Below are positions 16,914 to 42,694 of a DNA stretch of 64,000 nt, piece after piece. The notes below the pieces were generated by a model. The model saw nothing but the letters and a program-made list of their open reading frames with translations, made no database searches and was not told where the DNA came from. A program made the translations under genes and the position numbers. How positions within the stretch are numbered: position 1 is the stretch's first letter; every line of letters begins with the position of its first letter. Source of the stretch: Citrus sinensis (Eukaryota; Streptophyta; Magnoliopsida; Sapindales; Rutaceae); the NCBI RefSeq assembly GCF_022201045.2, contig NC_068558.1, positions 4,183,501-4,247,500 of the forward strand. Direction: 5' to 3'.

Positions 16914-17308
16914 AAGTGACCTGAGTGAGTCATATAATGTACCTCACCAAAGAATTGTGACATTGGGTGTGTTTTCATGATTTCGTTGCCGATTTAGATC
17001 GACCATGTAGGATCGGTGCATTTGAGATTACACAAATTTACTCTTAATTGTTTCCTTGGTGAATGATTTAGTCTTCTAAATTGGTATAGACATCGTGTTC
17101 TGTGTTCAAATACTGATGAATAATTAATATTATTGAGGTAGCTGGCTAGCATCCGATTCTTATAAGCAGGTCTTGTTGCAATGAAAAAGCTCACACTTCC
17201 GGTAGCAAATACATAAATGAAATGTTGTTCATCCAGAACAATGCAAGTTATTTCAAACAGGTGGCTTTTCTTTTATTATCTAGTAGTAACGGATAATTAG
17301 CCATTCAT

Positions 17309-19804
17309 TCAGAGTCTGGATGATCCCTTGGGATGATGCATGACTATGCTGTTATAGGCATCCAGAGTCAGGAAATCGTCTAGTGTAGAGGCTGTGCATT
17401 GTCGAATGAACATCTTGCATGCTTCCTTGTACATTCCCTTTCTGAATTTTTCTTTGCCAACCTCTCTTTCAATCCTTGCCATCTCTTCATCCACCACTCT
17501 TCCAAAGAGTTCTCGGCTCACCTTCACTCCAAGACCATCTCCATCCAACTCCGCTTCATATTTCAGCCACTGCCAGTTCTGAACTCTGCTAATCTCGGCT
17601 GTGGCAGCATCTTCCATGAGGTTATAAAGAGGCACTGAGCCAGAGCCAGTGAGCCATGCTGCCAAGTACTGAATACCCACTCGGGTATTCAGGCGGAGTC
17701 CCTCCAAGGTACGGACTCCTCTGGGCTTCTGTAAGAGGTCTTCTCCTGTTATGTTCCCCGCATCTTCTCGCTTCATGGTTTGGATCTGGTTAGGTGCATT
17801 CCCCATGTTGTTGTTGAAGGCTTCCATGCAGGTTGGGATCAACCCTGGATGGGCAGCCCAAGTTCCATCATGTCCTGCCCTGACCTCTCTTAGCTTGTCC
17901 TTCCTTACAAGTTCCAGTGCTGCCTCATTGGCTGCTGGGTCATCTCTAATAGGAATCTGAGCTGCCTGTTTACAGGCATAGAAAGAAATAAGCATGTCGA
18001 AATAATGGAGAATAATTAAGTTAAAAAGAGAATTGGATCCCGTACCATTCCTCCCATGGCATGCACACCACGCCTATGGCATGTCCTGATAAGGAGATCA
18101 GAATAGCACTTCATAAAGTGCTGAGTCATGCCCACCTGCACCCTGTCTGGTAGTAGCCTATCTGAGTGACCTTGGAATGTCTTTACATAGCTGAAGATAT
18201 AATCCCATCGTCCACAATTCAAACCAACAGAGTGATCTCTAAGCTCATAGAGGATTTCATCCATTTGAAAGACGGCTGGAAGAGTTTCGATTAGAACCGT
18301 GGCCCTGATGCTGCCTCTTTCAATTCCTGCCATCTTCTCAGCCTTTTCAAACACACAATTCCATATTTTGGCCTCCCTGTTAGCAATAACAATTAACATA
18401 AACATTTATATCAATAGAACATCCACAAAAGTGTTGTTCCATCATCAATTGGTTTTATTTCATATATACTTCTGGCTATTTAGGGTGTTTGCCTAAGCAG
18501 CACCATAACAGGAGGACTCATAATGATCACTAGCGAAAAGAAAGTCCAAGGAAACACACATTTAGGAAAGCATTTAACTTTCTTACCTCGAGTGCTCCAT
18601 TTTAGGCAGATAGAAGAAAGGTCCGAATCCTTCACCTTGGTTGCTTCTGAATGCAGCATAATTGTGGTAAAAATAGAGGCCGAAATCCACTAGGCAACCA
18701 GTTGCTGGCTCACCATCTATGAGGATATGTGCCTCAGGTAGATGCCAGCCTCGTGGACGGACAAATAACTTAGCAGTTTGTTCATTGAGCTTGTAAACCC
18801 TGTTCCTGGCCTTATCATGGAAACTTATGGTCCCATTAACGGCATCCTTTAAGTTCACTTGGCCACTCATGAGGTTATCCCAACTAGGTGAGAGCGCATC
18901 TTCAAAGTCAGCCTATGCATTAACAACTGAAATCTCAGTTTCGACTATTCCTTGGAAGAAGAATTTATTCATGATTAATTGTTCAATATCTTGGATAGTA
19001 CCATCAGTATTACTAGTAAAGGGATGGACAAATTAATTTGATTTCTCTGTTCCTGTTACACTAGATAATTTACTTGTCAGTTTTCGAAATGGTATGATAT
19101 GAGGATTCAAGACTTATTTATGGAATTTCAAAATCGACTTGTGTGCAAACAAGAAGACCTTTTCAAATTGGTGGCTTCGGATTTATTTATTTATGTTTAT
19201 GAGGAGCGGGGGATGACTAAAGCTACTGCGTCCAGTAAGAAAATAAGTAAGCTTTCTTGCAATTGTATTCTTATGATCTTATCATACTTGCAGTTCACAA
19301 CTGCTTGATGCATATCCGTTAACTCCTGTCATGCAGATGCAAGTGGATGATCATGAAGAATTCATGCACTCGGGGAGTAGAAAGCAGAGGAATGGAAGCA
19401 GAACTCACCATGAACACTTTAGCTCCAGAGTTGAGTGCATTAATGATCATCTTCCTCTCGACAGGACCCGTAATCTCCACCCTCCGATCCGCAACAGGTG
19501 GCGGAACTAGCGCACACGTCCATTCCCCTTCCCTTATGTACCTTGTCGCAGCATCAAAACCAGGCAAGGCTCCCTCGTTGTATCTCCTTTTCGCCTCCCT
19601 ACGACACTCCATTGCATACTTGAGACGGTTCCTGAACTCCCTTTGCAAATCCGCAACAAATTGCAAAGCATCCTTGTTAAGAATCTTTGCAAACTCTTCA
19701 CTGTATCGGCCTCTAATCTCCACTCCTTCAGGGACATCATAGTGGGCACTAATCTTTTTGGTCATAGTTGGTGCAGCGTAACCATATGTGCCGAGGCCAA
19801 CCAT
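17309..19804 (-). CDS. MLS: Malate synthase, glyoxysomal
   Basis: The enzyme condenses acetyl-CoA with glyoxylate to form malate in the glyoxylate cycle of glyoxysomes/peroxisomes. Four exons (19804-19409, 18912-18587, 18376-18046, 17965-17309) join in frame with GT-AG introns to give 569 aa, the normal plant length, starting [12 protein letters not shown]. The family signature [16 protein letters not shown] is intact, as are [13 protein letters not shown] across intron 1, [30 protein letters not shown] and [19 protein letters not shown]. The C-terminus SSRL ends in SRL, a type-1 peroxisome signal. No frameshift or stop was found, so this is the one functional copy; only a 3' scrap remains in unit B. 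A TATA-like CTTTATATTT lies about 92 bp upstream. The family is normally induced in germinating oilseeds and senescing tissue. Confidence 0.96.
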
Positions 19805-20354
19805 CTTGCTTTGCTTGTGATAGATAAAACTACTGTTTCTTGCGCGTTATTTTTGAGCAGGAAAAATGTGTGACGTTAAGACGAAGATGTAGTACAAATA
19901 TAAAGGGGAAAGGGCGGCAAGTGGATAGCTATAGAGCGTCATCGTTATGGGTAGATTTTCATGATAAGGAGGTGGCTTTGAACCTTGTGCCTGCCTCGGG
20001 AACCGCAGTTTGTTAGGATAGTGTTGAATTGGAAGTGCCGGAATAGTTGATGTCAGCATGTTGGTCATGTAACAGAGAAACGGGAAGTATTGTGAATAAA
20101 ATAAATTCCACTACAAAATTCGCGCCACCAGGTGGGAACCGACATAAAAAATACGCGCTCATGCGCATACAAATTACCCAAAGAGCTCCCCAAGAACGCA
20201 AATGCGTTGACAAAGAAGCTTCGTAGCCGTTCGATATCGTTTCTGAGGGTAAGGGTTGAGATTTTGGGTTGATTTTTTTTTTCTTTGCAATATTGTATTT
20301 TTTGTTTGAGTTTGATTTTTGATTGGGAGGAGTTGGGGCTGTTAATAAAATAAT
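19805..20354. promoter_or_regulatory. Head-to-head intergenic region between MLS and the CDKG copy
   Basis: 550 bp separate the MLS start codon (minus) from the ATG of the truncated CDKG copy (plus). A minus-strand TATA-like box (CTTTATATTT, 19905-19896) serves MLS. The half nearer the CDKG copy matches 26390-27000, the flank of the intact CDKG. Relative to unit B about 350 bp are missing after GATATCGTTTC, corresponding to 26531-26881, with TTTC at the deletion junction. The ancestral arrangement was therefore divergent, with a possibly shared promoter. Confidence 0.55.
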
Positions 20355-20920
20355 ATGGCGGCAGGGCGACCTGATGTTTCAAGGAGAAGGGAGTATTATG
20401 GTTACTACAGAAAAGATGAAGAAGTTGCTCGTTACAAAAAGGTCTCTGGTTATGATGAATTGGGTCATAATGCTGGTGATCACTAGCGGAGAAATGGCTA
20501 CCCTTTTTTGTCAAACGGCTATAAGCAACGTGGTGAAGCCCGGAGAGATGATGCACCATGTATTAATAATGGTGAAGTGTCGAAGTGGGAAGATGGGATT
20601 TTCAGTTGCCTCCGAGGAAGAAATTCAAGTTTACACCCATCATATGGGACTTAGAAGAGAAGGAAGTAAGCATTTCATCTAAGAACAGAGCTGTACCTAC
20701 AACTTGTAGGCTAAGTTTGTTCAATCTTAGGAGTCTGGATTTGACTTGTTAAACAATCTTTGGACTTGCTGTATGGTCTGTTTTGACATAGTTCTAAATT
20801 TGATTTCTGATTGTTGGCTTCAAGTCCAAACCTGTGAAGGCATTTCAGTTATGGCATTTTATTGTTTTATGCAGCAAATAACAGTAGATGACGCCCTTAA
20901 TCTCGGAATAAGCAGCTGAT
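20355..20920 (+). pseudogene. Truncated CDKG kinase pseudogene (unit A copy)
   Basis: It begins with the same ATG-GCG-GCA-GGG start as the intact gene at 27001 and follows its N-terminal extension for about 350 bp. An in-frame TAG replaces an AAG codon (GATCACTAGCGG against AATAACAAGCGG), and the frame also shifts near 20595. After GAGCTGTACCTACAA the sequence jumps to the part of the gene near 29690. This removes the rest of exon 1 and exons 2-3, including the entire ATP-binding and catalytic region, a loss of about 2.35 kb. Remnants of the last two exons (GAGTCTGGATTTGACTTG; AACAGTAGATGACGCCC) follow with further small deletions. It cannot encode a kinase. Confidence 0.93.
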
Positions 20921-21910
20921 GATTTGACTTGACGTGGCATTATATAATCCAGAAAACTTTTTGATCAAGAATGTTGTTGAGGAGGCGTACTGAGAGTCTG
21001 GATTCAGAGATTGCACATTGGTGACAGTCGAAAAAAGCGCGTGTTTTCTGTCGCATGCCATTAAAGAGGCACTTCTATTAATTGCACGGGCGTGAACCAA
21101 CTACATAGACGCGTGATTGGGACTCCAAAATAGATGAGTATCATTTCATTTTTTCCCCCTTTTCTGATCTTTGTTAGGAATATTGAATTCTGTACTAATG
21201 TTTTGCGAATCCTGATGTATACATAGAAATGTAGGAGCTACCTGCTCTGTGTGAAGAGACAAAAAGGATTAAAGGAAAAGAAATGGACATTACTTCGGGT
21301 TTCTGACTGTGATCTCCAAGTCTGTATGTCAATGGAGCTCGTCTCTTTGCTTGAGTCATGGTTTCCCCCCGGTTTGATGATTAGTTTTACTAAATCATTT
21401 CTTTGTACGCATTCAATTTTGATCATTGAGAGGGAGAAAAACTGAATACTGCACAGTTTTATGATCAAAATGTTATTCCTTAGTGACTAACAGAGGAATT
21501 GATGCATATAGCAGTAAACGTGTTACAGACATCAATACATTTGAAGTAACGAAAATGCAATATTTTTCCCAGCCTTTGATAATGTACTTCAACAAAATAT
21601 GCATCACTATAATAAATTCTGTGTATCAGTCATTTTCGACTAGCAATAGGATATATCTTGACTACATTGATATATCTAAACTGTTACTAGCCTTTACTGT
21701 GTATCAGTCATTTTGGACTCCACTTGGCCTTAACTCAGTTACTGATGAAGCAGGTGTTGGGGAAATAAGAAGAGGGAAAACAGTGTGCAAAATGGTTTTT
21801 TCTTTTGGGTGGGTTTTCTGAATGATCTCGTATAAATATCATTTGGTACTAAAGCTTATGGTTTTTCCAAGCGCAAAAAAAAAAAAAAAAAAAAAAAAAA
21901 AACTAACGAA

Positions 21911-24203
21911 CAAACCAACGAGGCAGTTGGATGAAGAATATTGTATTGATGAGAGTCCAATCAATTGTCCATCCAAATACAACGGCTCCACCAGTAGTGG
22001 ATTGCAAATATGTTACTGCAGAATCAAGGAAATTAGTTCGAGTAAACATCATATGTAGATACATAATGGAGAACTACTTAAAGCTATAAAGAAAATCTTC
22101 ATGACTATGAAGGCAAGATAGATTGATGACACACCATACTAATCACAAGGCATTTTAATAGCAGACAGTGATTGAAGATGAAACGGTAACTTCACCTTTT
22201 CTTTTTCCCGGTAAATATCTCACTGACATTTTGTAGTGTGTATCAGATGAACTAAAAGGAGAAGGAAAATTTTCATGAAAAGGCATGAGAGGATATTGCA
22301 AGACTTTTATCCAGATCTATATGTCAATTTTGGGCACCTATAATATTTCTTTTGAATAAACTGAATTCAATAGAAATCTGTGTGAACCCCCGTAGTATTA
22401 CCAAGGGGTTGATAGATGCCCTGCCGACATCAAAATGAGTTTCTTTAGATCAAACCAGGTGAAAGAGAACTTATATCGGTCATTTAACTAAGACAGTCTG
22501 TACGCAGGCAAATGCAAGAGTTCTGATGCAAATATGAGACTAAAAGTTAAAACAACCCATAAAGCCCTCGACCATGTAGAATTTTCCACTTCTGAACTTC
22601 TTCCATACAATGGAGATGTACTGAAGAGGAAAATCAAGTCCCTTACTAGTAAGGTTGGCACTTGGCAGTGTCTAAGGGCAACCCTCAATGGGTAGCTGAG
22701 ATCACAAGTTCTAGACGGTGAAATTATTGTAGCAAGGCCATGAGCAGGACAAAGCTAGGGAATCATTTAATAACAATCTAACAACAGGTTCTTTGGATTA
22801 CTGATAAAATATTCAAGGAATAAGGATTCATTCAAGTCATAGGCAACTAAATCTGGAAAAATTAAAACCACATTCTTAATGTTCAACTGCAGTTAGAAAA
22901 ATATCAAGACAAAAATATTTTTAAGAAAAGTGGGTATATGTACCAAAAATCTTGCCGCTTGTGATACATGGACATGTATGAAGCCAGATGTGCATTTGTC
23001 GGGATCGGCATAAAGACAACAGACACCAGATCACTTTCGGAATAGTTTCTAGGCTATTCCTGTTATTTGTCATTCCCCAATGAGAAACATCATTGGCGCT
23101 GCATGTGACTGAAGCATGCCATCTGCGAGCAACCGATCCAAGATCCTTAATTCAGGCAAATAATTATTCCAATGAGCTCAATAATAGTGGAAACCTGCAA
23201 AAAAGAGAAATTAAGAAGCATGAGTTTGCAAAGCTAACAGAGATTTCTGAGAACTGAATTTCTAGACAGAAATTAACGAAACTTTCATTGACAATAATAT
23301 CATCCAAGTAAATCTATTTATGACTTGCAACTTTACGAACTGTTTGAGCGCTTATTGCAAAATCACCGCCATTAACAAAATTGACGGTTCCACTATTCCC
23401 TGTGGTTTCCAACAGAGCCACAAATGGAGTTGCTGTCACAACCAAGAACTCTAGAAGCAGAAATATCCAGAACCTGTGGCTTATCTTAGAGAGATTGTAT
23501 TTTAAAAGCGTGTGTTCCTCAACATATACCGAAACATATAGATCCCTTTCCAAAAGCTTGCCATAATTTTCAAAGTGAATCACCTGCAAATTGCACACAA
23601 GATGGAACAAAGCAGTGCCTGATAGATAGATTACAGTCGAGTTAGTCCATGATACAAGCAATGCAACTACTACACCAACAGATTGCCACCAGGAACTATG
23701 CATACATACAACATGAATGACCTCACGGGCAGCCTTCAAAAGGAAGCATGGCAAGACCAAAAGTACCAACAATTGAAAGAGACCTTGAACAACAAGAACA
23801 GTTGCATTACAATATAAAGTAAGAGCAGATCACACATATAATTAAAATGCACGAGCAACAGAAATGTAGTAGTGATGAAGCTTTACTACAATTAAGTTCA
23901 TGTTTGAAAACATTGGACCAAGTTTAATAAATACATAATCATACATTTCAAATAAAAAATAAATAGATAATCTTACATATCAGAACGGCCTAAACTAGAA
24001 TCTCTCAAGTCCAAAAAGTAAGAATTACTACTTCAAAGGAACAAAAATATTAAATGTTTAATACTTCTCTTCGCCGAAAAACCTTGACAGAAAAGCTGGT
24101 TAATACTCACTCACATGGATCTTTTGTAGATACTCTTCAAGAAACAGAGTCATGCAACAAGAGACTGAGACGCAAGAATTTCAAGCTCAAAGACTCCAAT
24201 TTG
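21911..24203 (-). pseudogene. DUF3537 gustatory-receptor-like pseudogene, unit A copy
   Basis: The exons match the copy at 30880-33651 and encode multi-pass membrane segments such as SWWQSVGVVVALLVSW and FLLLEFLVVTATPF. DUF3537 proteins are plant membrane proteins proposed to be distant relatives of animal gustatory receptors. This copy lacks the 5' part of exon 1, ending at the duplication breakpoint at 24203, and also has an internal deletion of about 70 bp in exon 1 (next to GAGTCATG at 24146-24153). A splice donor after GGTGATTTTGCA is mutated from GTAAGT to ATAAGC near 23357. About 30 bp are missing after TTTGCCTGAAT near 23155. It does retain TAT and AAC codons where the other copy has stops. 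It has no start codon or promoter. Confidence 0.88.
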
Positions 24204-24280
24204 TTAATTGTTAAAAACTGTTTATTTCATAATTTTTTTAATCTTGATAACTTTTAAAAAGTTAGCATGAGTTATTTTTC

Positions 24281-24366
24281 ATAAGCAGGGCTGAGTGGAT
24301 TAAAACGTCGGATTGCTAATCCAGTGTATAAGTTATTCGTACGAGGGTTCGAATCCCTGCTGCATC
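24281..24366 (+). tRNA. Degenerate plastid-like tRNA-Ser(GCU) relic
   Basis: The sequence has a D-arm GGCTGAGTGGATTAAAACG, an anticodon arm GGATTGCTAATCC with anticodon GCT, a long variable arm ending TTCGTAC, and a T-arm GAGGGTTCGAATCCC. This follows plastid trnS-GCU closely and is unlike the nuclear Ser(GCT) tRNAs I know. The acceptor stem does not pair properly, the anticodon stem has a C:A mismatch and the T-stem a G:G mismatch. It is therefore probably a dead organelle-derived insert rather than an active tRNA. Only the tRNA itself is recognisable; flanking plastid sequence was not seen. Confidence 0.6.
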
Positions 24367-24369
24367 AAA

Positions 24370-25404
24370 AATTAAATTATAAATTTTTGATAAAAATCGA
24401 GCAGTTCGAGTAATTGCGTCATTGTGCGATATATGGGGGGGGGGGGGGGTGTTCAATATTGATATGTTATTTAGTCGAGTTTCTTTATTGAGGTTCTTTA
24501 AAAGTTTTTTAATTCATTTTTTAAAGTATTTTTATGCTTTTTCTTTCTTTTCTTTGATTTGGTATGATATCTTTGGTATGCACTAATACTATTAATAAAT
24601 TAATAAATAAGATACCATATTTTTTTTAAGGTTTCTATTATAATCTTAATATTAAAAATAATAATTACGTTTTATCTTTCTAAACACCTAAGCAATTAAG
24701 TATCATATTACCACCACAACTACTGTAAGTTCTCTCCAGTATTAAAGTTTTGATCTATTAAATTCATATTTTTTATATTTTATTTTTATTTTCTATTATA
24801 TGATTTAATGAGCCTTGCATGTGATTATGTAAAATTTTTTGAATTATGAATAATTTCACATGAAAGTTAATCATGACTTTTAAATTCAATTTCACAAACA
24901 CAGCTTTTAACACTCACTCTATTTATATATATATTTTTTCTATAGTTATGATATTTATTGCAACAAGTTTAATGTGAATATAATATATATTACTTTTTAT
25001 TTTATTTGAATTATGTATTAATATAGATTTTTATCATATTTTATGTAACAAATAATGAAGTTCATCAGATTTTATTTAATTAAAATTTTGTCACTTTATG
25101 TAATTTTATATGGTTTAAAAAGGAAAAGACGTGTTTTAAAATAATTAAACATACTAAAAAAATAATTTAAAATTATATTTATTTTAATCATTATACAATA
25201 GAACAACACTTTTGTAAAAATAATTACCAAACACACGTACATTGTTTTTAAACTAACAACAACTGCAGAACACAATTTATCAAACATTAAACTATTTTTT
25301 CAATCAGCAGCTTGTTGTATCGATGCAGTAGAAACAATTTATTTAATCAACATTTGCAATCCCAAACTGACCCTCAATCTTATAAATGATATTGATCGAA
25401 ATGA
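24370..25404. other. Spacer between duplication units with a poly(G) run
   Basis: AT-rich sequence with no gene. A run of 15 consecutive G (24435-24449) is striking against the base composition. The open frame at 25096-25287 on the minus strand is low-complexity AT sequence. Confidence 0.5.
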
Positions 25405-25620
25405 TTTATACATGGTGTTATGTGTTCAAATGCTAATGAATAATATTATTGACATAGCTAGCATCTGATTCTTATAAGCAGGGTTTGTTGCAATCAAAAT
25501 GCTTTTACACCTGGTAGCAAATACATGAATGAAATGTTGTTCATCCAGAACAGTGCAATGATGAAATAACAAGCGATTGATCTTTTATTATTGCAATTCG
25601 GTTAATTGTACACACAATTA

Positions 25621-25712
25621 GCCATTTATTCAGAGTCTAGATGATCCCTTGGGATGACGCATGACTATGAATGTAGAGGCTTTGCACTGTCGGGAGAACA
25701 TCTTGCAAGCGA
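25621..25712 (-). pseudogene. Malate synthase 3'-end fragment
   Basis: This stretch matches the end of MLS exon 4 at 17301-17420, including the codons for the last residues (GATGATCCCTTGGGATGA). About 35 bp are missing after GACTATG. Similarity stops at about 25712; the rest of MLS is absent. The 3' flank (25405-25620) also matches the MLS 3' flank at 17088-17300. Confidence 0.9.
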
Positions 25713-25911
25713 CCCACAAATCTGGGTGTTTCTAGAATTAATTGGGATGTAAAAGGCATAACTTATTTCCCGGACTGCTAGATCCAACTCATTTGGGCTT
25801 CAAATTCACATCAAGCCTCATGTGTAACGAGTATATCGGACCAATTAGTGAGCAGGTCGTGGGCTAACGATTATGTTCTCAGTGTTAGAGTGAAAATAAA
25901 GTATTTTTATT

Positions 25912-26112
25912 GAATAATGATGTAGACACAAACTCTTGTATAAATTTATTTTGTACAAATTGACGAGACATTAGTTTATTGGTTGAATGAAAATATAAAT
26001 TAATAAAAATAAATCATGTGGGGCAAGTGATATTTAATTCAACTAATCTTATCATGCCATATCAGTTTGTACAAAATAAATTTGTACAAGAGTTTGTGGC
26101 TGTATCATTATC
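25912..26112. mobile_element. Mutator-type MITE, 201 bp, 9-bp target duplication
   Basis: The inverted ends are GAATAATGATGTAGACACAAAC at left and, reverse-complemented, GATAATGATACAGCCACAAAC at right. The identical nonamer ATTTTTATT flanks the element (25903-25911 and 26113-26121). A 9-bp duplication fits the Mutator superfamily. The second family member is at 51456-51820. No coding capacity. Confidence 0.8.
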
Positions 26113-26379
26113 ATTTTTATTTCTCAATTATAGTGAGGACTCTGTAAAGACTGTAATGTTCTTTTTAAAATAAAATATTGATACTTTTTTTTAGACAAAT
26201 TTAAATTACTCTGTTTAAATTTGGACGGGCTTGCAAGCCATTTGACTAAATCTTACAAAAAAAAAAATTGATGGTTATACAAGTATATATCATTATTATT
26301 TCGATTAAAAGAGAAAAGGATCTGAAACAAACAAAGCAAAGACTAAATGGGCCAGAAACAGAAACACGGAAAGTATTGT

Positions 26380-27000
26380 GGAAGGAAAAAAATTTCAGAA
26401 CAAATTCGGGCCACCAGTTCTAAACCGACATAAAAAAATACATTCTCTTGCGCCTATAAATAATCTCAAGAGATCCCCGAGAACGCAAACGCGTTGACAA
26501 AGAAGCTCCGTAGCTGTGCGATATCGTTTCGATTTGGTCCTGGTATCGTTGGTCCTGATATCGTTGGTCCTTCCCTTGTCTCTCCATCAATCTCCGGTAA
26601 GATCTTCATTACCTGTGAATTTTGAAGGAGAGACAGCCGTAAGCACCAAAATTCATCTTCTAGGGTTTTGTTTGTGCTTTGATTCGCATCTCAATTTGTT
26701 TTTTTAATTTTTACCTTCATTCATCATCATAATTTGTTTGATTTCTATACCTGATCTGTATTCTTGATCTGATTTTCGTGTTTTTGACTGTTGAAGTATT
26801 GTTGTATACTTGATTAGGGTTTTGTGGGAGGAAAAAGGGGAAATTTTAATTCGGTTTGAAATTTGTGAAACTGTTGAATTTCTGAGGATAAGGGTTGGGA
26901 TTTTGGGTTGAATTGGGTTTCTTTTTCCTTACAATACCAATATTGTATTTTTTTGTTTGAGTTTGATTTTTGATTGAGAAGAGTTGTGGTTGTTAATAAT
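26380..27000 (+). promoter_or_regulatory. Promoter and 5' UTR of CDKG
   Basis: Sequence from about 26390 is shared with the unit A copy, showing it belongs to the ancestral gene flank. A 15-bp tandem motif (GGTCCTGATATCGTT) occurs about two and a third times at 26537-26572. A possible 5'-UTR intron starts at CCG|GTAAGATC (26595), but its acceptor was not settled. A pyrimidine-rich tract and CTTTTT runs precede the start codon. Confidence 0.45.
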
Positions 27001-29962
27001 ATGGCGGCAGGGCGACCTGATGTTTCAAGGAGAAGAGAGTGTTATGGTTACTACAAAAAAGACGAACAGGTTGTTCGTTACAAAAATGGTTCTGGTTATG
27101 ATGAATTGGGTCATCATGGTGGTAATAACAAGCGGAGAAATGGGTGCCCTTTTTTGTCAAATGGGCACAAGAAACGTGGTGGAGCCCGATTAGATGATGC
27201 ACCATGTATTAGTAATGGTGAAGTGTCGAAGTGTGATGAGGGGGTTCAGTTGCCTCCGGAGAAGAAATTCAAGTTTACACCCATTATATGGGACTTAGAA
27301 GAGAAGGAAGTGAGCATTTCATCTAAAAGCAGAGCTGTACCTACAAGTGCTGCTTTATCTTGTCCTAAGTCTCCTGCAAGCTCGGTTAGTGAGGTTTTTG
27401 ATGCTGGCTCTGATGGAACATTTGCAAAAAGTCCAATCTCGGGGAACCTGGCCAAAGAATTGGACTTCTCCTCAGATAAGCTTCTTGTGGCTGGTGGATC
27501 AGCAGAATCCACAGTATCTGATTCTCGAGTGGGTATGTCTCCTTCTTTCCTTGAAGAAGCGCAGATTGGGACTGATGATCTGGATAAGATTCAGTTGGAG
27601 GAGGAGGAGTTTGTTCCAGCAAAGCATATATCAACATCACGGTGGGCATCTGATAGTGACAGTCCGATGGCCAGGTCTTTATCTGATAGGGAAGACACCC
27701 CTAAAAGGGAGGAACAGGCTTCAAAGAGGTCTACTCCTGAGAGTGGTGAGATTTTTAGAGAAAGCTCTGAAGATGAGGCCAGGCTGTTGGGATCTGATAG
27801 CGAAGTTGGGGTGCATTCAAGTGAAGATGAATATTTTGGAGATGAGTTGGAGGATAATGACGTTATGGCTATTGATAAGACAGTTGATGAGGATACTGGT
27901 GTTGACCAGTTAGAGGATGAAGAGCCTGTTGTATCCGTACAAAGAAGCATGAACATGCTTCAGGGTTGTAGGAGCGTGTTTGAATTTGAAAAACTCAACA
28001 AAATAAGTGAAGGAACTTATGGTATTGTATATAGAGCCAGGGATAAGAAGTCGGGGGAAATTGTGGCATTGAAGAAAGTGAAGATGAATGTGGGAAGAAA
28101 AGAAGATTGTTTAGAATATGGTTTCCCTATTTCATCTTTGAGGGAAATCAATATTCTCTTGTCATTTGATCACCCTTCAATTGTGAATGTAAAGGAAGTT
28201 GTTATGGATGACCATGATAGTGTTTATATGGTTATGGAGTACATGGAACACGACCTAAAGTGGTTAATGGAATCAATGAAGCAGCCTTTTAGTACGAGTG
28301 AAGTCAAATGCTTGATGCTACAGCTTTTAGAGGGCGTCAAGTATCTTCATGATAATTGGGTGCTTCACAGGGATTTGAAAACATCAAATCTTCTTTTGAA
28401 TAACCAGGGCGTTTTAAAGATTTGCGACTTTGGGATGTCACGCCAGTATGGAAGCCCGCTAAAGCCATATACATCACTGGTTGTCACATTATGGTATAGG
28501 TAAGATGCATGTTATTGTTATTCTTCCAATACATTATTTAAGCAATTAATGTCTGGGAATTGGGTCATCATAACTATGGATTATTAAACGAGTCTAATGG
28601 GCCAAAGTTAGTTTATGAATGCTTCAATTTGTATCATCAGTAGGCAGTTCTGGTTCTGTTGGCAATCTTGTGAGTTAATTTTATGTGTGATGAACTTTAT
28701 TTGTCATCATTGTTTTAGGACTCCTAAGTGTTCTGGTTCAGAGGTTATCCAGCTTGTGTGCTTCTCTGATGTTTCTGGTTTGGCTTGACAGGAAACCAGG
28801 TTTTTAGTGGTTAATGGTCGAACCATGTAGTATGGTGGTTTAAACCCTGAAGTAACCTGTCCTTCCTTTAGACCTTTCTATTAACCTTATGACTTTTTAA
28901 AAATATATATATATTTGCAGCACATAATTCTTGGATATTTGAGGAACTTTGGTTGATTAGTTTTCTTCTGATTTTTCTTGTTTTCCAATTAAACCATATA
29001 GTGTGGTGGTGTAATCATCTAGACATTTCCTTGATCCCTGTATGTAACCTGATAAGAATACAATGTGTGTGCATGCCTTCCCCCCACCCCCTTCTTTCCT
29101 GGATCAGTAAAATGTTATGGTTGTGCTAATGTTCAGCTGGTTGTTTGATTTTAATGTTGCAGAGCTCCGGAACTTCTGCTAGGAGCAAAGAAGTATTCCA
29201 CTGCAGTTGACATGTGGTCAGTTGGTTGTATAATGGCTGAACTTTTGGCCAAAAAACCATTGTTTAGTGGGACAACTGAAGTTGACCAAATTGACAAGGT
29301 AACATATTTTTTTCGTAAAGCCTTTTGTATTCTTGTTTCTTAGGAATTTCTCAGTAATTAATGTCTTTGAAATAATTGCAGATTTTCAAAACACTAGGCA
29401 CTCCAACTGAGACAATTTGGCCTGGGTTATCTGAGTTGCCAGGAGCCAAAGCAAATTTTGCTAAACAACCGTATGTCTATTTGTGCTGTTCTCTTTTTTT
29501 ATCCAGTTATTTTCGTGTTTTCTATCTTCAAGGCCAAACACAAGCTTTTCTGGATTATTATGTTGCATTTATTTTACTTGAACTCCTCACAAGATCAAAC
29601 GCCATAAATGGTAACAACTGCTTTCTTTTTACAGGTATAATCTGTTGAGGAAGAGGTTTCCTGCCGCTTCTTTTACAGGATCTCCGGTTCTCTCGGAGTC
29701 TGGATTTGATTTGTTAAACAGACTTTTGACTTATGACCCTGAGAAGGTATGGTCTGTTTTGACAAAGTTCTAAATTTGATTTCTGATTGTTGGCTTGAAG
29801 TTGAAACTGTAAAGGCATTACAGTTACGATATATTTTATTGTTTTATGCAGCGAATAACAGTAGATGATGCCCTTAATCATTATTGGTTCCGTGAGGTTC
29901 CTCTTCCCAAATCCAAGGACTTTATGCCTACCTTTCCCCCCCAGCATGCTAGGAACAAGTAG
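27001..29962 (+). CDS. CDKG: Cyclin-dependent kinase G (CDK11-like)
   Basis: This nuclear serine/threonine kinase of the CDKG/CDK11 group partners with L-type cyclins and acts in splicing and meiosis (family knowledge). Exons 27001-28499, 29163-29298, 29382-29470, 29635-29746 and 29852-29962 join in frame to 648 aa. The start is the ATG of [12 protein letters not shown]; the frame is open 9 codons further up but without an ATG. Residues 1-325 are an acidic, Ser-rich regulatory extension. The kinase domain runs from about 326: glycine loop [10 protein letters not shown], Lys358 in VALKK, C-helix PISSLRE at 376, HRDLKTSN at 456-463, DFG at 476-478, and TLWYRAPE across intron 1. All catalytic residues are present. 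In Arabidopsis I recall CDKG1 (At5g63370) next to a 4CL-like gene (At5g63380), matching the order here, so CDKG1 is the likely orthologue. Confidence 0.95.
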
Positions 29963-30879
29963 CTGATGATATGACTGAACGTGGCATTACATAATCCAGA
30001 TAACTTTTCGATCAAGAATGTTGTTGAAGAGGCATACTGAGAGTCTGGATTCAGAGATTGCACATTGGTGACAGTCGATACAAGTGCATGTTTTCTGTGG
30101 CATGTCATTGAAGAGGCTCTTCTATTAATTGCACGGATGACCCAACTGCATAGAAGCCTGATTGGGACGCAAGTATGATTTCATTTTTTTTCCTTTTCTG
30201 ATCTTTGCTAGGAATATTGAATTTTATACTAATGTCTTGCGAATCCTGATGTACATAGAAATGTAACAGCTACCTGTTCAGTGTGAAGAGACAAGGGAAA
30301 GAAATGGACATTCCTTTGGGCTTCTGACTTTAATCCCCAAGCCTCTATGTGTATGGAGCTTGTCTCTTTGCTTGAGTCATGGTTTCCCCCCAGTTTCACT
30401 GAATCATTTCTTTGTACGTATTCTGGTTAGATTATTGAGAGGGAGAAAAACTGAATACTGAAAATGTTATTTATTAGTGACCAACGAGGAATTGATGCAT
30501 TTAGCAGTGAACGTGTTACAGACATCAATATATTTGAGGTAATGAAAATGCAATATTCTTTCCCGTGATTGGTAATGCACTTCAACAAAATATGTATCAC
30601 TATAATAAATTCTCTGCATCAGTCATTTTCGACAAGCAACAGGTTATATCTTAACTGACTACATTGATGTATCTAAACTGATTACGCTAAAGCCTCAACT
30701 CCGTTTACTGACGACGCAGGTGCTGGGGACATCATCAGAAGGGGAAAAAACAGTGCGCAAAAGGTTCCCCCCCACCCTCCATCTCTTTTTTTTTTTTTTG
30801 GGTGGGTTTTCTGAATGATCTTGTATGCATATCATTTGGTAGTAAAGCTTACGGTTTTTCCAAGAACAAAAAGGACGAG

Positions 30880-33651
30880 TGACAGTTGGATGAAGAATAT
30901 GTATTGATAAGAGTCCGATCAATTGTCCATCCAAATTGCGTGGCTCCACCAGGACTGGATTGCAAATATGTTACCGCAGAATCAAAGAAATGAGCTCGAG
31001 TAAACATCATATGTAGACAGTAGATACATAATAGATAACTACCAAAAGCTACGAAGAAAATCAAGACGACTGTGAGAGCAGTGTAGATCGACGACATACT
31101 AGACTATTCACGAGGCATTTTAATAGCAGACACTGATTAAAGGGGACGCGGGGACTTAAGTTTTTATTTTACCCAGTAAATATCTCACTGATATTTTGTA
31201 GTGTGTATCAGATTAATTAAAAGGTGAAGGAAAATCTTCATGAAAAAGCATGGAAGGATATTGGAAAGGCTTTTATCCAGATCTATATGTCAATGTTGGG
31301 ACTGATAAATTTTCTTTTGAATTACCTTGAAATCTGTGCGAACCCCATTAGTAATACCAAGGGGTTGATTAGGTCTCCTGCTGATATTAAAAAGAGTTTC
31401 TTTAGATCAAATGAGGTGAAAGAGAGCACTTATATCAGTCATTAAACTAAGACGGTCTGTATGCAGGCAAATGTGGGAGTCCTGACGCAAGTAACAGACT
31501 AAGAAGTTATAACAATGCAAAAAACCTCCCCACCATGTAGAATTTTCCACTTCTGAACTTCTTCCATACAATGGAGATGTTTTGAAGAGAAAAATCAAGT
31601 CCCTTACCAGTAAGGTTGGCACTTGGCAGTGTCTAAGGGCCACTCTCAACGGGTAGCTGAGATTACAAGTTCTACAAAGTGAAATTACTGTCGGCGGTTG
31701 CCAGGACATGACAAACACATTTTGTTATAACAATCTAACAAGAGGTTCAGGAAGCACATTTTGTTACATCCTTTATCTTGGTACATGAGTATACTACCTT
31801 GCAGGTGTGGACCAGAAGATGAATTGATGTTTTGAATTACTGGTAAAATATTTAAGGCATAAGGATTCATTCAAGTCATAGGCAACTCAAATATGGAAAA
31901 ACTAAAATCACACTCTTAATGTTCAACTTGCAGTTATATCTTTAAGAAAGGTAGGTATACGTACCAAAAGCTTGCCGCTTGTGATATATGGACATGTATG
32001 AAGCCAGTTGTGCATTTGTCAGCGTTGGCACATAGTCAGCTGACTCCAGATCACTACCAGAATAGTATCTAGGTACCGAACCTGACGGATAGGCAGTCTC
32101 TAAGCTATCCATGTTATTTGTCATTCCCAAATGAGAAGCATCATAGGGGCTGCATGTGACTGAAGCATGCCATCTGCTAGCAACTGATCCAAGACCCTGA
32201 GCTCTATGTGAGATCTTTGGAGCTGCATTCAGGCAAATTACTATTCCAACAACTTCAACAATAGAGGAAACCTGCAAAAATCAAAATTAAGAAGCATGAG
32301 TTTGCAAAGCTAACACAGATTTCTGAGAACTGAATTTCTAGACAGAAATTAACGAAACTTTCATTGACAATAATATCATCCAAGTTTAATCTATTTATGA
32401 CTTGCAACTTTACAAAGTGTCTGAGCACTTACTGCACAATCACCGCCACTAACAAAATTGATGATTCCACTTTTCCCTGTGATTTCCAACAAGGCCACAA
32501 ATTGAGTTGCTGTCACAACCAAGAACTCTAGAAGCAGAAATATCCAGAACCTGTGGCTTATCTTAGAGAGATTGTATTTTAAAAGCGTGTGTTCCTACCG
32601 AAACATCTAAATCTCTTTCCAAAAGATTGCCATAATTTTCAAAGTGAATCACCTGCAAAGTGCACACAAAGTGGAACAAAGCAGTGCCTGATAGATAGAT
32701 TACAGTCTAGTAAGTCCATGATACAAGCAATGCAACTACTACACCAACAGATTGCCACCAGGAACTATGCATACATAAAACATGAATGACCTCACGGGCA
32801 GCCTTCAAAAGGAAGCATGGCAAGACTGAAAGTGCCAACAATTGAAAGAAACCCTGAACAACAAGAACAGTTGCATTACAATATAAAGTAAAGAGCAGAT
32901 CACACATAATTAAAATGCACGAGCAACAACAGAAATGTAGTGATGAAGGTTTACTACAATTAAGTTCATATTTGAAAACACTGGACCAAGATTAATAAAT
33001 ACATAATCACACATTTCAAATAAAAAATAAATAGATAATCTTACAGATCAGAACGGCCTAAACTAGTATTTCTCAAGTCCAAAGTAAGAATTACCACTTC
33101 AAAGGAACAAAAATATTAAATTTTTAGTACTTCTCTTCACCGAAAAACCTTGAAAGAAAAGCTGGGTAATACTCACTCACATGGATCTTGTGTAGTTACT
33201 CTTCAAGAAACAGAGTCATGTGACCATGATGGTGATCCACAAAGAGAAATTTACGCGCACCATACTTGCGGAGATTGTGAGAGATGCATATCATAGAAAT
33301 GGCAGCAACAAGAGACTGAGACGCAAGAATTTCAAGCTCAAAGACTCTAATTTCGTACTTGTCACAGTTGGAACAGTAAGAGAAATTGATTATGCTGAGA
33401 GGAAGAGAAACACCCAGAAGCAGACAGCAGAGCCATGAGAGAGTGAAGCTCAAGACAGAGCACTGGCAAAACCCAAGGAGTTTTAGAAAGCATTCTAAAC
33501 GGTGAAGAGATTTGGAGAGCTGGGCCTGGGTGTCTTTTAGCTCTTCTTCTTCTTCTTCTTCTTGTTCTGGTTCCTGGGATTGTGTAATAAGTGGGGTTTC
33601 GATGGTTGATGAGTTGTGTTCTGTTTCTGTATCTGTGACTGGAACTGCCAT
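30880..33651 (-). pseudogene. DUF3537 gustatory-receptor-like pseudogene, unit B copy
   Basis: Exon 1 (from 33651) starts MAVPVTDTETEHNSS, has a Glu-rich stretch and hydrophobic segments, and ends near FLFVDHHHGHMTLFLEE. There an in-frame TAA (33198-33196) replaces the TAT (Tyr) seen in unit A, seven codons before the expected GTGAGT donor. Exon 2 carries a TAG in place of Ser (SWTY-stop against SWTNS, near 32706). An 8-bp deletion near 32596 shifts the frame (TTTCGGTAGGAACAC against TTTCGGTATATGTTGAGG). The last exon has a 1-bp deletion at LINT (about 30913). Splice donors are otherwise intact. The intact ancestor would have been a multi-pass membrane protein. An upstream donor at GA|GTAACT would remove the first stop but leaves the frame wrong and does not rescue the later lesions. 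Confidence 0.88.
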
Positions 33652-33759: not shown

Positions 33760-35343
33760 AGAAGTTACTTTTATTTAAAAATGGTGGGTAGACAGGAGCT
33801 GAGTGAGAACCGTGAGGACTGGAGACAATTGCTAATCGTGTTCTTAAGATTCATTTTATTGGTTAAAACATTTTCTTGATTACCTGTAAAAATATTTTCT
33901 TGGTCACTAGGATTGCCTTTGATTGACGGCTGATAGTAGTTTCCTTACCAAGCATTTGTATTTTCTTGAAAAAAAAAGAGTCTCAAGCTTGGTCAAAATC
34001 AAATCATGATGCTTCAATCAATGGGCTCAAGTGGCAACGCCTCAGTTTAGGGGCAGCTTGATCCGTAGCCTGGCCTGCTGTTAGTAATTAATTTATTTTA
34101 TTCTTGATACTGGAAACTGAAAATTATAAAATTGATTATTGGCAAGTAGTCTCACATTAATTATTTGTAGCTTGAAAAACCATTATTAATTATTTATTAT
34201 TAGTTCCGAGAAATTGAACTGGAAAATGATCGGTTATTAGCATCCAAAAAGTTTACAAACTCAAGAGAAGATGGAAGCAGCGGATTCGCATATCGATTAG
34301 ACTTTTGGGCAGATTTGCGCAGTGAATTGCACGGACATGTAATATAATATAATTATAAGGATATGGTTTTGTTGGAGTTAATTTAAAATAGAGCATGAAT
34401 TACAGAAAGTGATAAATAATAAAAATTTATTATAATTTTAATCGTGTGTTTACGAAAGAATATTTTAATTTAGAGCGATTTTAACATAATCAAATCTTAA
34501 TTATAAACTAACAAACAAAGTTATTAGGTAGAGTTAACACATAAAAATTGATGCATAATATTTATATTGGATCAAATATTGTTTAATTACCTCAAATAAT
34601 TAGCCCACAAGGCTAAATTGAGATTCAAATCTAACGCCAGACGAAAACGGAACTGCAGGCTCATATTAGCAGAGAATGTTAGGTGTTAAGAAGGAAGATT
34701 ACAAGATGGATTGATTTTTAATTTTCTTTGAATAAATTGTTCCTAATTAATGCGTTAATATGTCAATGTTAAAATAATACGTATTTTCATGCTCGTTGAG
34801 TCATGAGGCCATGTTCTTGGTCCTTATTTTGAGCAATGAAAGTTATCTTAATATTTTTAATTAGACGATTATCATATTATTATTACATTTCTAACAAATT
34901 TGTGAACATTAATTCAGAGATGTATTTGCAAGTAATATATAAGGGTGATTAAATTTTAGACCGTGTTGAATTCTGATTGTAAATATATCACTTGTATTCT
35001 ATCTCATTCAAAAATAAGAAATAAATGTCATTTTTTATTTTATGTATATATAACATGCCTATCTGATTCTTAGTAAGTTCCACTTATTTGATCACAACAT
35101 TAGGGGCGACTGAATGAATGATAAACGATATTCTAAAAGATTTATTGACACTCAAAAATGCAATTTTATTGACACTGTATATATAAATAGACATATTACA
35201 GGTATATTGATAATAGAAGCAGAGGCACGAGGGAACCTGGATTCTGGATGGTAATATAATAACCCCTATTGCCGTCAATTGCAACCGTGATCGGTCATCT
35301 CTCATGCCATTTTCTCAGCATCCTCGTTGTTTGACTAAATACA
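33760..35343. other. Intergenic, downstream of the first 4CL-like gene
   Basis: No gene, RNA or clear element was found. The part nearest 35343 is the 3' UTR side of the ligase gene on the minus strand. Confidence 0.45.
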
Positions 35344-38300
35344 TCATAATTTAGACAAATTGCCAGAAAGAGCATGATTCACCAGCTCTCTCCTCAAGAT
35401 CTTTCCGGCTTCAGATTTTGGAATAGAATTGACAAAAGCAACGCGTCTTATCTTCTTGTACGGTGCAACCTGCAATAGCAAATTAATCAACTCTAGTGTA
35501 TGATCTAGAACCTGAATCTGGCATTAAAACTGATATAGAAAAAGCAAATGTATAGTATGAAACAGAACAACAATTTATAGAATATAAGGCAGAGATTTTT
35601 TTTTTTTTTTTCCTGCATGGAGTTATATTTTTGAATGGGGTTTATAGCTATGAAAGTAATATTTGTAGAATGCAGTTCTTGTTTTTTCGCTCTTTCTTCA
35701 GTAACAGTCAATCAAGGACTGAAACTTCATACGTACTCTTCTATTTCACAGGAAGATGAGTTCAATGCAAAAAATTAACTAGTATGCTCCGTCTAAATAA
35801 TGTAAAGAGTCAAAATAATATTCCAAGTGCCAGTCTTAGACTTTTTACTGGTTGATTTTTTAGAGACGGAAGTGGTTCGGTAAACCAGAAGCAGACCTAG
35901 TGTCCTAATTCTAGACAATATCTCATATATATTTATTGATTCATGTCAAGAATTTGAGTGTTGATGACTCCAGTAAGTATAATTTTACCCATTTCTCTAA
36001 AAGAACCATTGGCTACTATGTAATATCTAATTCTGTATATATGTTATATATAATTTAAAGATAGACAGATATCCAACCAGGATGACAAGATGCCATTGCT
36101 ATACTATCTGTTCTTATACATCACGAGGCCATCATATTTGAGAATATTATGCGGCCATATTTACGAAATGGAAACTTATATATGCTTTGCAATCCAAAAA
36201 AACTGCTGTCTGCTTAGTTATATAATATCGATATTCAGAAACATGCCTGTTTTGCGATGAAATCCATTAATTGAGCCTCATTGATACTGCTTCCAGGTTT
36301 TCTCACCACAAAAGCCATGGGAATCTGCCCAGCTTCTTCATCAGGGTACCTGCTTGAGAATAAACCATATGGATGAGAGATAGGCACTGCTAAACCATCA
36401 TGACAGATGAACTTAATTCCATTTGAAATTGCTGAGGCAGGCTAGTCCATTTAAAGAACAATGAAACCAAAAAAGCTTACTATCAGCCCATCACCCAAAA
36501 AAAAAAAAAAAAAAACCGGATTGGATCTATTATTTCTTGATTGACACATACAAGAAAAAAAGAAGAAAGAGAGCAGTCAGTGTTATGATATTTTTGCTAA
36601 AATAGTCTATTTTCTACATCACCCATCTGATATAGTAAATTAAGTAAAAATGAAAAAGAAAATCCGGTACCCTTGATGTTGTAAACTAATCAGGAATTCT
36701 GATAAAATTTTGGATGTTAAAGAGCATAATGTTATCAAGGTAATTTGTCACTCAGGATCTACATGCACTTTTTTTCTACCTAGCATCATAGCATTCCATA
36801 AGATTTAGAACTGACATTTTAAAAAATAAAACAGGCAAATGCCTTGCAGATGTATATGAACAAGAAGATATATTCTAAATGTACGCGAAATGATGAACAG
36901 TATTCAGCAACTGTTTTAAATGGATAGCAAAACAAATTTACCATTAAGAGACATTACCCCCCTCAATCCCCCTTGTGCGGGACTTTGAAGGCATGAGTGG
37001 CAAACAAAGTATATGCAGCAAGCAAATAAAATGACACAGTTACATACGGAATCACAGCAGCATCAGCAATTTCGGGATTAGATTGAAGTAAATGTTCCAG
37101 CTCAGCAGGGGGAACCTGAAAGAACATTCCAGATAAACAAGATGAGATTATTCATCTACATCTATATATGTCTGTCATTATAGGACTGCTGGTAAAGAAT
37201 CAGAGCCACAAATCACCTGATATGCCTTATATTTTATCAATTCCTTTAACCTATCAACAATGAAGAGGAAACCATTGGAGTCAAAATAACAAAGATCCCC
37301 AGTCTTTAACCAGCCCTCTGAATCCACGGTTTCAATAGTTGCTTTGTTGTCCCCTATGTATCCTGCATATTAACACAGTCATACTGCTGACAGAACTGAG
37401 AAGATTGACGATTGTTATATTTTTTTGAAAGTTGAAATGAACTTGAATGAAAAAGATAATCCCATTATTCAAAACAGCTAAGACGTTAGATGGCCTGGCA
37501 TTGAAACTACCCGAGAAATTAAAACTTGGAACACAACTATGATAAGCTGATGCCATAAACCATACATACAGTCTTGTTATTTATATATTATCACCTTTCA
37601 TGATTGTTGGGCCCCGCAACCACAACTCCCCTTTCTGTGCTGGAGATAAAGCATCTCCAGTAACAGGATCAACAACCTTGGCTTCCATCAGTTCATGCAG
37701 ACGGCCAACAGAACCATGCCGTTTTGTCTCCTCAGAATCTCTCATACTCGAAGCTAGTCCTCCACATTCAGTCAAACCGTAGCCCTAAGATAAGAGAAAG
37801 GGAAGGAAAAAAAAAAATCAGCACTCACCAAGCACCAGCAATTCATACATTCATAGTACTAGCCATTGGCCAGCCATCTCATGTGATCTGGTTTAAGTTA
37901 TTATTTAAATACAACGATAACGAACAGGAAGAAAAATTAGAAAAATAGGAATAATTAATTAATTAACTAAAATTATTCAGTACCTGAATAATCTCGACAG
38001 AGGGAAATTTCTCCTTGAACTTGTCGGTGACCTCCTTTCCGAGCGGTGCGCCGCCACAGCTAAGATACTGAAGCGAGCTGAGGTCATACTTTTTTGTCAA
38101 CTCCGATTTAGTTAAAGCCACAACTAATGGCGGGGAGACCGGCATGCTGGTAAGTTTATACTTATCCACGGTCTTCAACATCGTCTCAAAATCAAATCTC
38201 TCCATGAAGACCGCAGTCTCACTGACAGCAACCACCCTCACTAACGCTAGGAAGCCAAAAACGTGAAACAGAGGCAGCGTTATTAACGAAACCTCACCCG

Positions 38301-39021
38301 ACGGCTGTGGTTGTTCAGTTGGATTTGCCCCGTACTCGACATGGTGGAACGACGCTACCAAGGAGATTATGTTTCGGTGAGTCAACAGCACGCCTTTGAC
38401 TTTCCCAGTGGTCCCGGAAGAGTAAAGAATGACTGCAGCGTCTGACTGGTTTACGACGGCTGGGGGAGAAATCACGACGTCGTTTTGGTGTTGAGTTGAT
38501 AACAGCGAGAGGAACTCCGGGGAGTCGACGAGGACTGTGCGGAAGTTTGGCGGGAGCTTGTGGGAGGTGCGTGACGTGGCGAAGGCGATTGAAGGTTTGC
38601 TCAGGTGGAGTTGATGAGATATTTCTGAGGTGGACCCCAGCGGGTTGGCGGGAGAGACGACCACGCCGAGGGAGAGAAGGGAGAAGTAGAGGACGGGGAT
38701 CTCGAAAGAGGAAGGGGAGAGGATGAAGGCGACGTCGTTCTTGGAGAGAGAGTAATGCTTTTGGAGGGAGAGCGTGAGGGAGTTGGTTTGGCGGAGGAAC
38801 TCAGGGTAAGTGAGGCGTCGACCGGTGGCGGCGTTCATGAGAAATGGTGCGGCGGTCGTGGTGGCTGATTTGTGGAGGATCGATAAAGTGAATTGTGTGA
38901 CGGAGAGAGGCTGAGACGATGGCGGCAGAGGAATCTTTGGTCTTACGCTGTGGAATGTTTTCGTCTGTGAACAAAAGCCGCTGTTTGGATCAATCAGACC
39001 GTTGCTGTTTGTCCCCGCCAT
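35344..39021 (-). CDS. 4CLL9: 4-coumarate-CoA ligase-like, peroxisomal (copy 1)
   Basis: This is an acyl/aryl-CoA synthetase of the ANL superfamily: ATP-dependent adenylation of a carboxylic acid, then thioester formation with CoA. Exons 39021-37984, 37784-37595, 37362-37217, 37115-37048, 36349-36247 and 35469-35344 give 556 aa. Motifs: AMP-binding [11 protein letters not shown] at 201-211, GYGLTE formed at the exon 1/2 junction, [31 protein letters not shown], and [13 protein letters not shown] with the catalytic Lys near the C-terminus. It ends NLSKL, a canonical type-1 peroxisome signal, so the substrate is probably a jasmonate-precursor, fatty or benzoic acid rather than cytosolic coumarate. 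The last intron uses a GC donor (CAG|GCATGT). The name follows similarity and remembered Arabidopsis synteny (At5g63380); the substrate is unknown. Confidence 0.92.
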
Positions 39022-40408
39022 AAATTGAGATTCAAATCGAACTGAGAGACAATAGCAGAGAAGATTTTAAGTCAAAGGATGATGATTAAACGGTGATCAT
39101 GAACCTGCGACGGCTGCTACAGATTTTTTCTTTTCATGCATGGTATCGATTATTGGCTTTTATTTTAATCTGATAAATTATTATTATTAATTTTATTTTA
39201 ACTAGCTGTTGGTCATACTTGACTATTAAATGCCAATTGTTGACCTAATTTCTTTCTTTTTTTTTTTTTAAATAACAAATATAATCAGTTCTGTAAAATG
39301 GGGCCAGGCGGGCGAGGCGTGCCGCCAGATGCTTCTCGGGTGTGGCCAGATCAGACGATGCCCCGCAGCCAACAACTCTCCTTCTAACAACTACGGAAAC
39401 CAAGTACTATCTGTTTGGATATTCTAATATTCATGTACATGGATTAACTCCTATAGTCCTATGTAGGTCAATTAGCAATAATTTCTCGGCGGACTTCCAA
39501 GAAGCTTGTCAACGAATTTCGGAGATACTGATCGTGTAATTTAGGATTGGGTTTTATTTAACATTAAGGTATTATAATAATTTTTAAACTATAACTCTTA
39601 TGAAAAAAAAAACTATGAAATAAAAGTTTATATTATATAATAAATATAATTTTTAAATAATAATTTTGATAAAATTATTAAAGACGTAATAAATTTTTCA
39701 TCATATAAGTGAAAACTCATATCAATATAATTTCTAATTTATAGTAACTAGTGTTTATCAAAAATTACAGCAGTCAAGCAGTTAATATTTACCAAATATT
39801 GTAGTGCTATAACTTTTTAACTATAATTACCCAATCTCAAATTCAAATAGATTCTTAGTTATTTTGGTCAATCGACTGTGGAAGCTTTTTCTCGAGGTGC
39901 TATTGGCCAGGTAAATATTGCTTACTCTTGTTGATGTACAATGATTTGATGTTGTATTTCACATTATTTATTAATTTAAATATAATTTTTTAATTTTGAT
40001 TTCTTTCTTTCCGGCATAGACATAAAAAGCTATCCAAAATAAATAAATAAATATGATTTTTGTCACTTAGAGCGAAATGTGCGATCTAGACACTAGCAAG
40101 GGACAACCAAGAAAAAAGAAGACGAGTGAGTTTTTTGTCCAAAGCGTTTCAAGAAAGAAAGAGCTCTGGCCTCTTGAGGATAGCCGGTTCCTTTTGACCA
40201 GTTAGATAAGCAGAGCCAAGCAGTTTTGTGCACGTGAGCTAATAAACGAAACAGTCCACGTTTGATTATTCAACTGGCGCCTACGACAACAGAATATAAC
40301 TGGAGAAAAGTAATTCAGGAGTTAGTTCTGGAAAAACATAAATAAATACAAAGACACATCTTCGGATCTTCTCACTAACTCTTGTCTGTTTGAATTCGAG
40401 TAGATGGA
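39022..40408. other. Intergenic between ligase copies 1 and 2
   Basis: The first few hundred bases are the promoter side of copy 1. The remainder is AT-rich with poly(T) and poly(A) runs. No gene is seen; the 65-codon frame at 39342-39539 has no recognisable similarity. Confidence 0.45.
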
Positions 40409-42100: not shown

Positions 42101-42694
42101 AATTCAAAATCAAACGACAGATGACGAAAGAACCACCTGTAATAGCTGCAAGCGAAGATAACAACTTGCAAACTCAAAGTCTGTTTGATCGTGGAAGATG
42201 AATTACGTCCTTTGCTTATTTATAAGACGGGAAGGAATGGGTGATTGTTTAAAATGAATAATAATTTGATCCTTAAATTTGGCTCGTTTTCTTTTTCTCT
42301 TTTTTTCCAAAATAAATTATTCCTTGGATTCGCGGTCGTTGGTATACATGTCGCATGTTACCATAAGGTGCTCCGAGATCAATGATCTCAAAAATAGCTA
42401 TCCACGTGTCTCAACTAGAATAAGTTACAAGCCGGAGTGAAAATATGCAAACAATCTATCCCAAGAGAAACCGACACAATTTGAGTAGACTACATAGATA
42501 GTACACTTCCCTATTATAAATGTGTTCTTTTTTAATACTACAAATGCAATACACTGACTTTCATTTTCTTTTGACAAAAAGAAGAAAAAAACATGGGATA
42601 AAAACTAGGATGGAATTTAGGAAAAATACACTTGCCAATGTTGCATAGGATGCATTTCTCACAATGACCTTCCTCTCTTCTTTGAGAAGATGGA
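42101..42694. other. Intergenic between ligase copies 2 and 3
   Basis: It holds the former promoter of the dead copy 2 and the 3' side of copy 3. It contains one G-box (CACGTG near 42403). No gene was found. Confidence 0.45.

Follow-up and report, generated by a model that had tools for sequence, protein, structure and literature searches.

A tandemly duplicated MLS-CDKG-DUF3537 block in Citrus sinensis with reciprocal loss of two of its three genes

A 64-kb stretch of the Citrus sinensis genome (C3:4183501-4247500, hereafter the window; genome of 299.7 Mb in 11 contigs) carries two direct copies of a three-gene block, units A and B, in which malate synthase (MLS) is intact only in unit A, the CDK11-like kinase CDKG is intact only in unit B and a DUF3537 gene is broken in both. 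Sequence comparisons were made within this one genome and against profile and solved-structure libraries, and the features discussed are collected in Table 1. Taken together, they make it very probable that the locus arose by tandem duplication followed by complementary loss and decay of DUF3537, with likely conversion between the units.

Self-BLAST of the window joined units A and B in one collinear chain of direct repeats, with the gene order MLS (minus strand), CDKG (plus strand) and DUF3537 (minus strand) in each. This bears out an earlier note on this DNA, which had described two direct copies of an MLS-CDKG-DUF3537 block and proposed self-alignment as a check of their collinearity. The copies are adjacent, direct, collinear and similar above chance, as in a tandem segmental duplication; the leftmost piece of the chain scored 154.6, whereas 200 shuffles reached 19.8 at most. 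The description of the copies as lying side by side held for their adjacency and direct orientation but not for abutment, as about 1.2 kb of other DNA separates them. On the right, A/B identity ends sharply inside DUF3537 exon 1, some 300 bases downstream of where DUF3537 starts in unit B (start codon 33649-33651), in agreement with the earlier placement of the end of unit A in this exon at about 24203. On the left, the gapped alignment continues for a few bases past 17079/25399 and is followed by AT-rich similarity only. A candidate extension of the homology (BLAST match 16279-17381/24591-25703 at 62.5%) was rejected; the left stretches gave z scores of -0.8 to 2.5 (200 shuffles each) and were not clearly above the shuffles, and the unit edge was therefore set near 17079.

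Table 1 Features of the duplicated block and of the DNA between its units (window positions).
Feature	Position	Strand	Details
Unit A	17079..24202	+	homology to unit B recognisable
Unit B	25399..33353	+	homology to unit A recognisable
A/B chain pieces (self-BLAST)	17079-17348/25399-25669; 20071-20243/26357-26530; 20240-20702/26879-27346
A/B chain pieces, continued (self-BLAST)	20730-20902/29695-29879; 20902-22791/29949-31748; 22792-24154/31831-33220
Rightmost A/B chain piece	24154-24211/33305-33362		93% identity
Intact MLS, unit A	17309..19804	-	exons 19409-19804, 18587-18912, 18046-18376, 17309-17965; 569 aa, C-terminal SRL
MLS remnant, unit B	25630..25710	-	about 81 coding bases, equal to A 17309-17348 + 17382-17422
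Replacement DNA for lost MLS, unit B	25711..26347	.	637 bp
MITE-like inverted repeat, unit B	25914..26111	.	two 79-nt arms, 80% complementary, 40-nt spacer
CDKG remnant, unit A	20240..20902	+	pieces 20240-20702 + 20730-20902
Intact CDKG, unit B	27001..29962	+	exons 27001-28499, 29163-29298, 29382-29470, 29635-29746, 29852-29962; 648 aa
DUF3537 pseudogene, unit A	21900..24202 (left end approximate)	-	five lesions
DUF3537 pseudogene, unit B	30830..33651 (left end approximate)	-	native 5' end; five lesions
Low-divergence tract	A 23206..24202, paired with B 32283-33353	.	possible gene conversion
Inter-unit DNA	24203..25394	.	about 1.19 kb: dispersed-repeat pieces, AT-rich sequence
Fused plastid-like fragments	24272..24411	.	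24272-24358 at 85%, 24358-24411 at 87%

The MLS gene of unit A consists of four exons with GT-AG introns throughout, and residues 32-556 of its 569 residues align to the malate synthase structure 3cux (E 7.4e-186). Its C-terminal SRL is presumably a peroxisomal signal (PTS1). Across the genome as a whole, the MS_TIM-barrel family was matched three times, each time in an exon of this gene. As the search turned up no further copy, one of the two MLS genes had to be kept. Unit B retains only a coding stub, with a 33-bp deletion inside it, and the 3' flank, while about 2.64 kb corresponding to A 17423-20061 (the body of MLS and its proximal upstream DNA) is absent; the DNA that stands in its place includes an inverted repeat resembling a miniature inverted-repeat transposable element (MITE).

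Conversely, CDKG in unit B is built of five exons separated by GT-AG introns, with an open frame and a complete kinase domain, whose best solved relative is CDK11B (chain 31zn_B, E 2.4e-133, 449 bits). The copy in unit A is reduced to part of exon 1 (20355-20702), which contains an in-frame TAG and a 2-bp indel, a 27-bp filler (20703-20729) and the ends of exons 4 and 5, the last exon being without 70 of its 111 bases. Two deletions are prominent: 348 bp of 5' sequence were removed at a 4-bp microhomology (TTTC), and 2.35 kb of the gene body were removed with the filler left in place. At its start, the filler reads as the reverse complement of the sequence immediately preceding it, as in snap-back end joining. 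The claims of the earlier note that MLS is intact only in unit A and CDKG only in unit B were thus confirmed, and no second full copy of either gene was hidden in the deleted parts of the units. CDKG2 of Arabidopsis corresponds to At1g67580 and is ascribed a splicing role in the part of PMC7683410 cited here. For its neighbour AT1G67570, an identity as a DUF3537 gene was sought in print without success and was not used.

Neither DUF3537 copy in the window has both an open frame and intact splice sites. In unit A, exon 1 is truncated and carries an 85-bp deletion at 24153/24154, the exon 2 donor has changed from GT to AT, and exon 3 has lost 26 bp and 31 bp. In unit B, stop codons interrupt exon 1 (TAA, 33196-33198) and exon 2 (TAG, 32707-32709), and there is an 8-bp deletion at 32595, a change of the last acceptor from AG to GG and a 1-bp deletion near 30899. 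The pieces in unit B match positions 2-102, 110-166, 208-266, 260-365 and 361-387 of the 391-position Pfam profile PF12056, and this near-full coverage indicates that unit B formerly carried almost the entire gene. The earlier view that the native 5' end lies in unit B is correct as to the start codon, which is present there, but the gene to which it belongs is a pseudogene. None of the five lesions in one unit recurs among the five in the other, and DUF3537 was therefore probably intact when it was copied. As the gene was broken in both units by different lesions, the reciprocal loss proposed earlier applies to two of the three genes, MLS and CDKG, and not to DUF3537. DUF3537 proteins have been proposed as plant relatives of insect gustatory receptors, as stated in part of PMC7746228; the PF12056 exons of units A and B, like an intact 449-aa gene of contig C4 (see below), are in line with that family, from which the window differs in that both of its copies are pseudogenes. 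A frame conserved between the units within the last DUF3537 intron (31407-31724 in B, 22488-22754 in A) has no Pfam match and is perhaps an old transposable-element piece.

The divergence between the units is uneven. Within DUF3537, synonymous divergence (Ks) was 0 in exon 1 (30 codons), 0.07 in exon 2 (136 codons) and 0.21 in exon 3 (80 codons); the CDKG remnant (114 codons) gave 0.19. When the final A/B block was examined with a change-point test, a step emerged at A 23206 / B 32283, with 13.9% divergence in the 2320 columns to its left (about 2.5 kb) and 5.8% in the 993 columns to its right (about 1 kb) (maximum chi-square 44.6, reached in 1 of 2000 block permutations); a second step within either side was unsupported, its statistic being reached by 432 and 1230 of 2000 permutations. 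The Ks comparison that the earlier note had suggested was thus carried out, with values of 0-0.21 across the parts, but in view of the step a single Ks cannot date the duplication. A sharp step at both coding and noncoding sites is what gene conversion between A and B would leave, and conversion is its simplest and likeliest, though unproven, cause. An alternative explanation, which we regard as rather doubtful, is that the right-hand 1 kb evolves more slowly or was replaced by a later unequal exchange. In its favour, a comparison within one genome would allow either direction and more than one event. Against it, the step is also seen when only noncoding columns are counted (14.1% of 1772 on the left, 6.3% of 459 on the right; Fisher P 2.5e-6) and persists when CpG/CHG columns are left out (11.4% and 4.1%), and its presence in introns shows that selection on exons is not the explanation; later unequal exchange, moreover, is a sister process to conversion. 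That the two units are an assembly artefact, with two haplotypes placed end to end, is very improbable: they differ in their deletions, in gene content and by a divergence (K) of 0.06-0.27, much more than haplotypes of a single species would be expected to show.

Several points weigh against the account of one duplication and one conversion. Divergence is higher in the MLS 3' part (K 0.21 over 261 columns) and in the MLS-CDKG intergenic region (K 0.27 over 182 columns) than in the blocks of CDKG and DUF3537 (K 0.12-0.13 each), which the account explains only as noise or fast evolution. Seen within a single genome, the step may have a cause other than conversion, and it may have run in either direction. 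Nonsynonymous changes are fewer than synonymous ones in the CDKG remnant comparison, without reaching significance (P 0.08). A very diverged left end of unit B could be hidden in the inter-unit DNA, and the plastid-like fragments found there may have inserted after the duplication.

These fragments are two short stretches, directly joined in the window, that match C11:8740-8831 (85%, 92 aligned positions) and C11:17323-17376 (87%, 54 aligned positions), two sites lying approximately 8.5 kb apart on opposite strands. C11 is presumably the plastid, judging by its size and gene content (a trnS and a stretch resembling rps2). No tRNA gene was found when the whole window was searched, so that its own trnS-like stretch is degenerate. 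The surrounding DNA is repetitive, with many weak copies of a stretch at about 24200-24288 elsewhere in the genome and a further dispersed repeat near 24447-24610. There is an even chance that the chimera is a later insertion that played no role in forming the duplication. Plastid DNA often enters plant nuclei, as parts of two published accounts state (PMC7037861, PMC6215612), and the chimera is about 70 bp away from the edge of unit A and has dispersed repeats on both sides; against a later insertion, the breakpoint is no more than 70 bp off, and the decay of the chimera (13-15% compared to C11) is of similar order to the A-B divergence. Fused organelle fragments with signs of end joining in nuclear DNA are described in the cited part of PMC6215612; the complex plastid insertions there are likewise fusions of fragments from distant organelle sites, and the putative case in the window differs in being small (about 140 bp) and beside a tandem-duplication breakpoint. 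Contig C10 (632.5 kb, mitochondrion-like; locus C10:258887-261978) also has sequence matching both fragments, spaced about as in C11, and seems to hold a plastid insert of at least 8.5 kb.

Under the favoured account, a segment reaching from just beyond the MLS 3' end, across CDKG and into DUF3537 exon 1 would have been duplicated in tandem. Aberrant repair of a double-strand break would be the likeliest route, given that no repeat common to the outer edges of the units was seen and that the inter-unit DNA holds dispersed-repeat pieces and the plastid-like chimera. Redundancy would then have allowed deletions to build up, in an order that we infer: unit B would have lost MLS with its proximal upstream DNA and unit A would have lost CDKG through deletions, one with the 4-bp microhomology and one with the 27-bp filler, while the truncated DUF3537 of A and the full one of B decayed independently and the intact C4 paralogue remained. 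At some time, conversion between A and B would have evened out their sequences over about 1 kb at the right end. In unit A, the MLS start codon (19804) and the CDKG start-codon position (20355) are 551 bases apart in head-to-head orientation, which indicates that the two genes formerly lay on one intergenic region. They are now about 7 kb apart, each next to its own remnant of that region, and the separation may have altered the regulation of both. A bolder proposal, that plastid DNA sealed the junction and that reciprocal loss divided MLS from CDKG and gave each a promoter of its own, strikes us as unlikely; if true, tandem duplication would have uncoupled a bidirectional promoter and left no duplicate of either gene.

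The window also has an older counterpart on C4. A search with CDKG exon 1 gave 88 matches, mostly to other kinases, and the sole close CDKG paralogue outside the window was C4:25565858-25567228 (56% over residues 69-509). Similar to the window pair, it stands tail to tail with a DUF3537 gene, here intact (449 residues, C4:25553397-25556225), and a gene at C4:25547108-25549726 matches the AMP-binding genes of the window, inverted relative to the CDKG-DUF3537 pair. From its long frames, the window holds six gene types (DUF7950, MLS, CDKG, DUF3537, AMP-binding and GH1), of which three (CDKG, DUF3537 and AMP-binding) were matched in 185 kb of C4; among window frames of at least 35 residues, those of MLS had no match there. 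C3-C4 synonymous divergence ranged from 1.6 (CDKG exon 1) to 2.3 (AMP-binding) and was saturated in the kinase part, so that the C3-C4 pair is far older than the A-B pair and probably a product of ancient polyploidy. Fractionation thus has more than one layer, given the older CDKG-DUF3537 copy on C4. The C4 CDKG carries a C-terminal tail exon and scores higher against CDK11B than the window gene (494 bits compared to 449 bits). The tail peptide gave only weak matches in the window (best E 3.6) and no tail exon was found, so that its loss probably preceded the tandem duplication. The CDKG kept in unit B is a diverged paralogue of its C4 counterpart, and DUF3537 was perhaps dispensable in the window owing to the C4 copy and perhaps others.

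Beyond unit B, three tandem AMP-binding copies, which we take to be 4-coumarate-CoA-ligase-like, occupy 35327-47399 on the minus strand. The middle copy (approximately 40.4-42.1 kb) is split between frames and pseudogene-like, and between the two outer copies the synonymous divergence (dS) of the first exon is 0.85. A 36-residue frame at 39631-39738 matches C4:25551799-25551903 (74% over 35 residues), in apparently noncoding DNA near the paralogous DUF3537, and is perhaps a dispersed repeat.

A literature search found no description of this locus in titles or the opening of abstracts, which is no proof of absence. Within about 16 kb, the locus brings together intact genes, remnants, foreign DNA at a junction and a likely conversion tract, and is useful as a compact worked example. 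It also carries two cautions: MLS or CDKG remnants may be miscounted as extra genes, and one Ks value would misdate the duplication. It is of a known kind, a tandem segmental duplication with fractionation. Fractionation is reciprocal for MLS and CDKG, as each unit keeps the gene lost by the other, but not for the block as a whole, as DUF3537 is broken in both. Similar to other plant cases, collinear multi-gene copies show complementary losses by short deletions; the window differs in that one of three genes was lost in both units, in the plastid-like DNA near the junction and in the possible conversion tract. In fractionation after whole-genome duplication, as covered in part of a Rutaceae comparison (PMC6691040), homologous blocks likewise keep some of the genes each. 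The C3-C4 pair is consistent with such an older layer, whereas units A and B differ from it in being adjacent and much younger (Ks about 0.2, compared to 1.6 to saturation).

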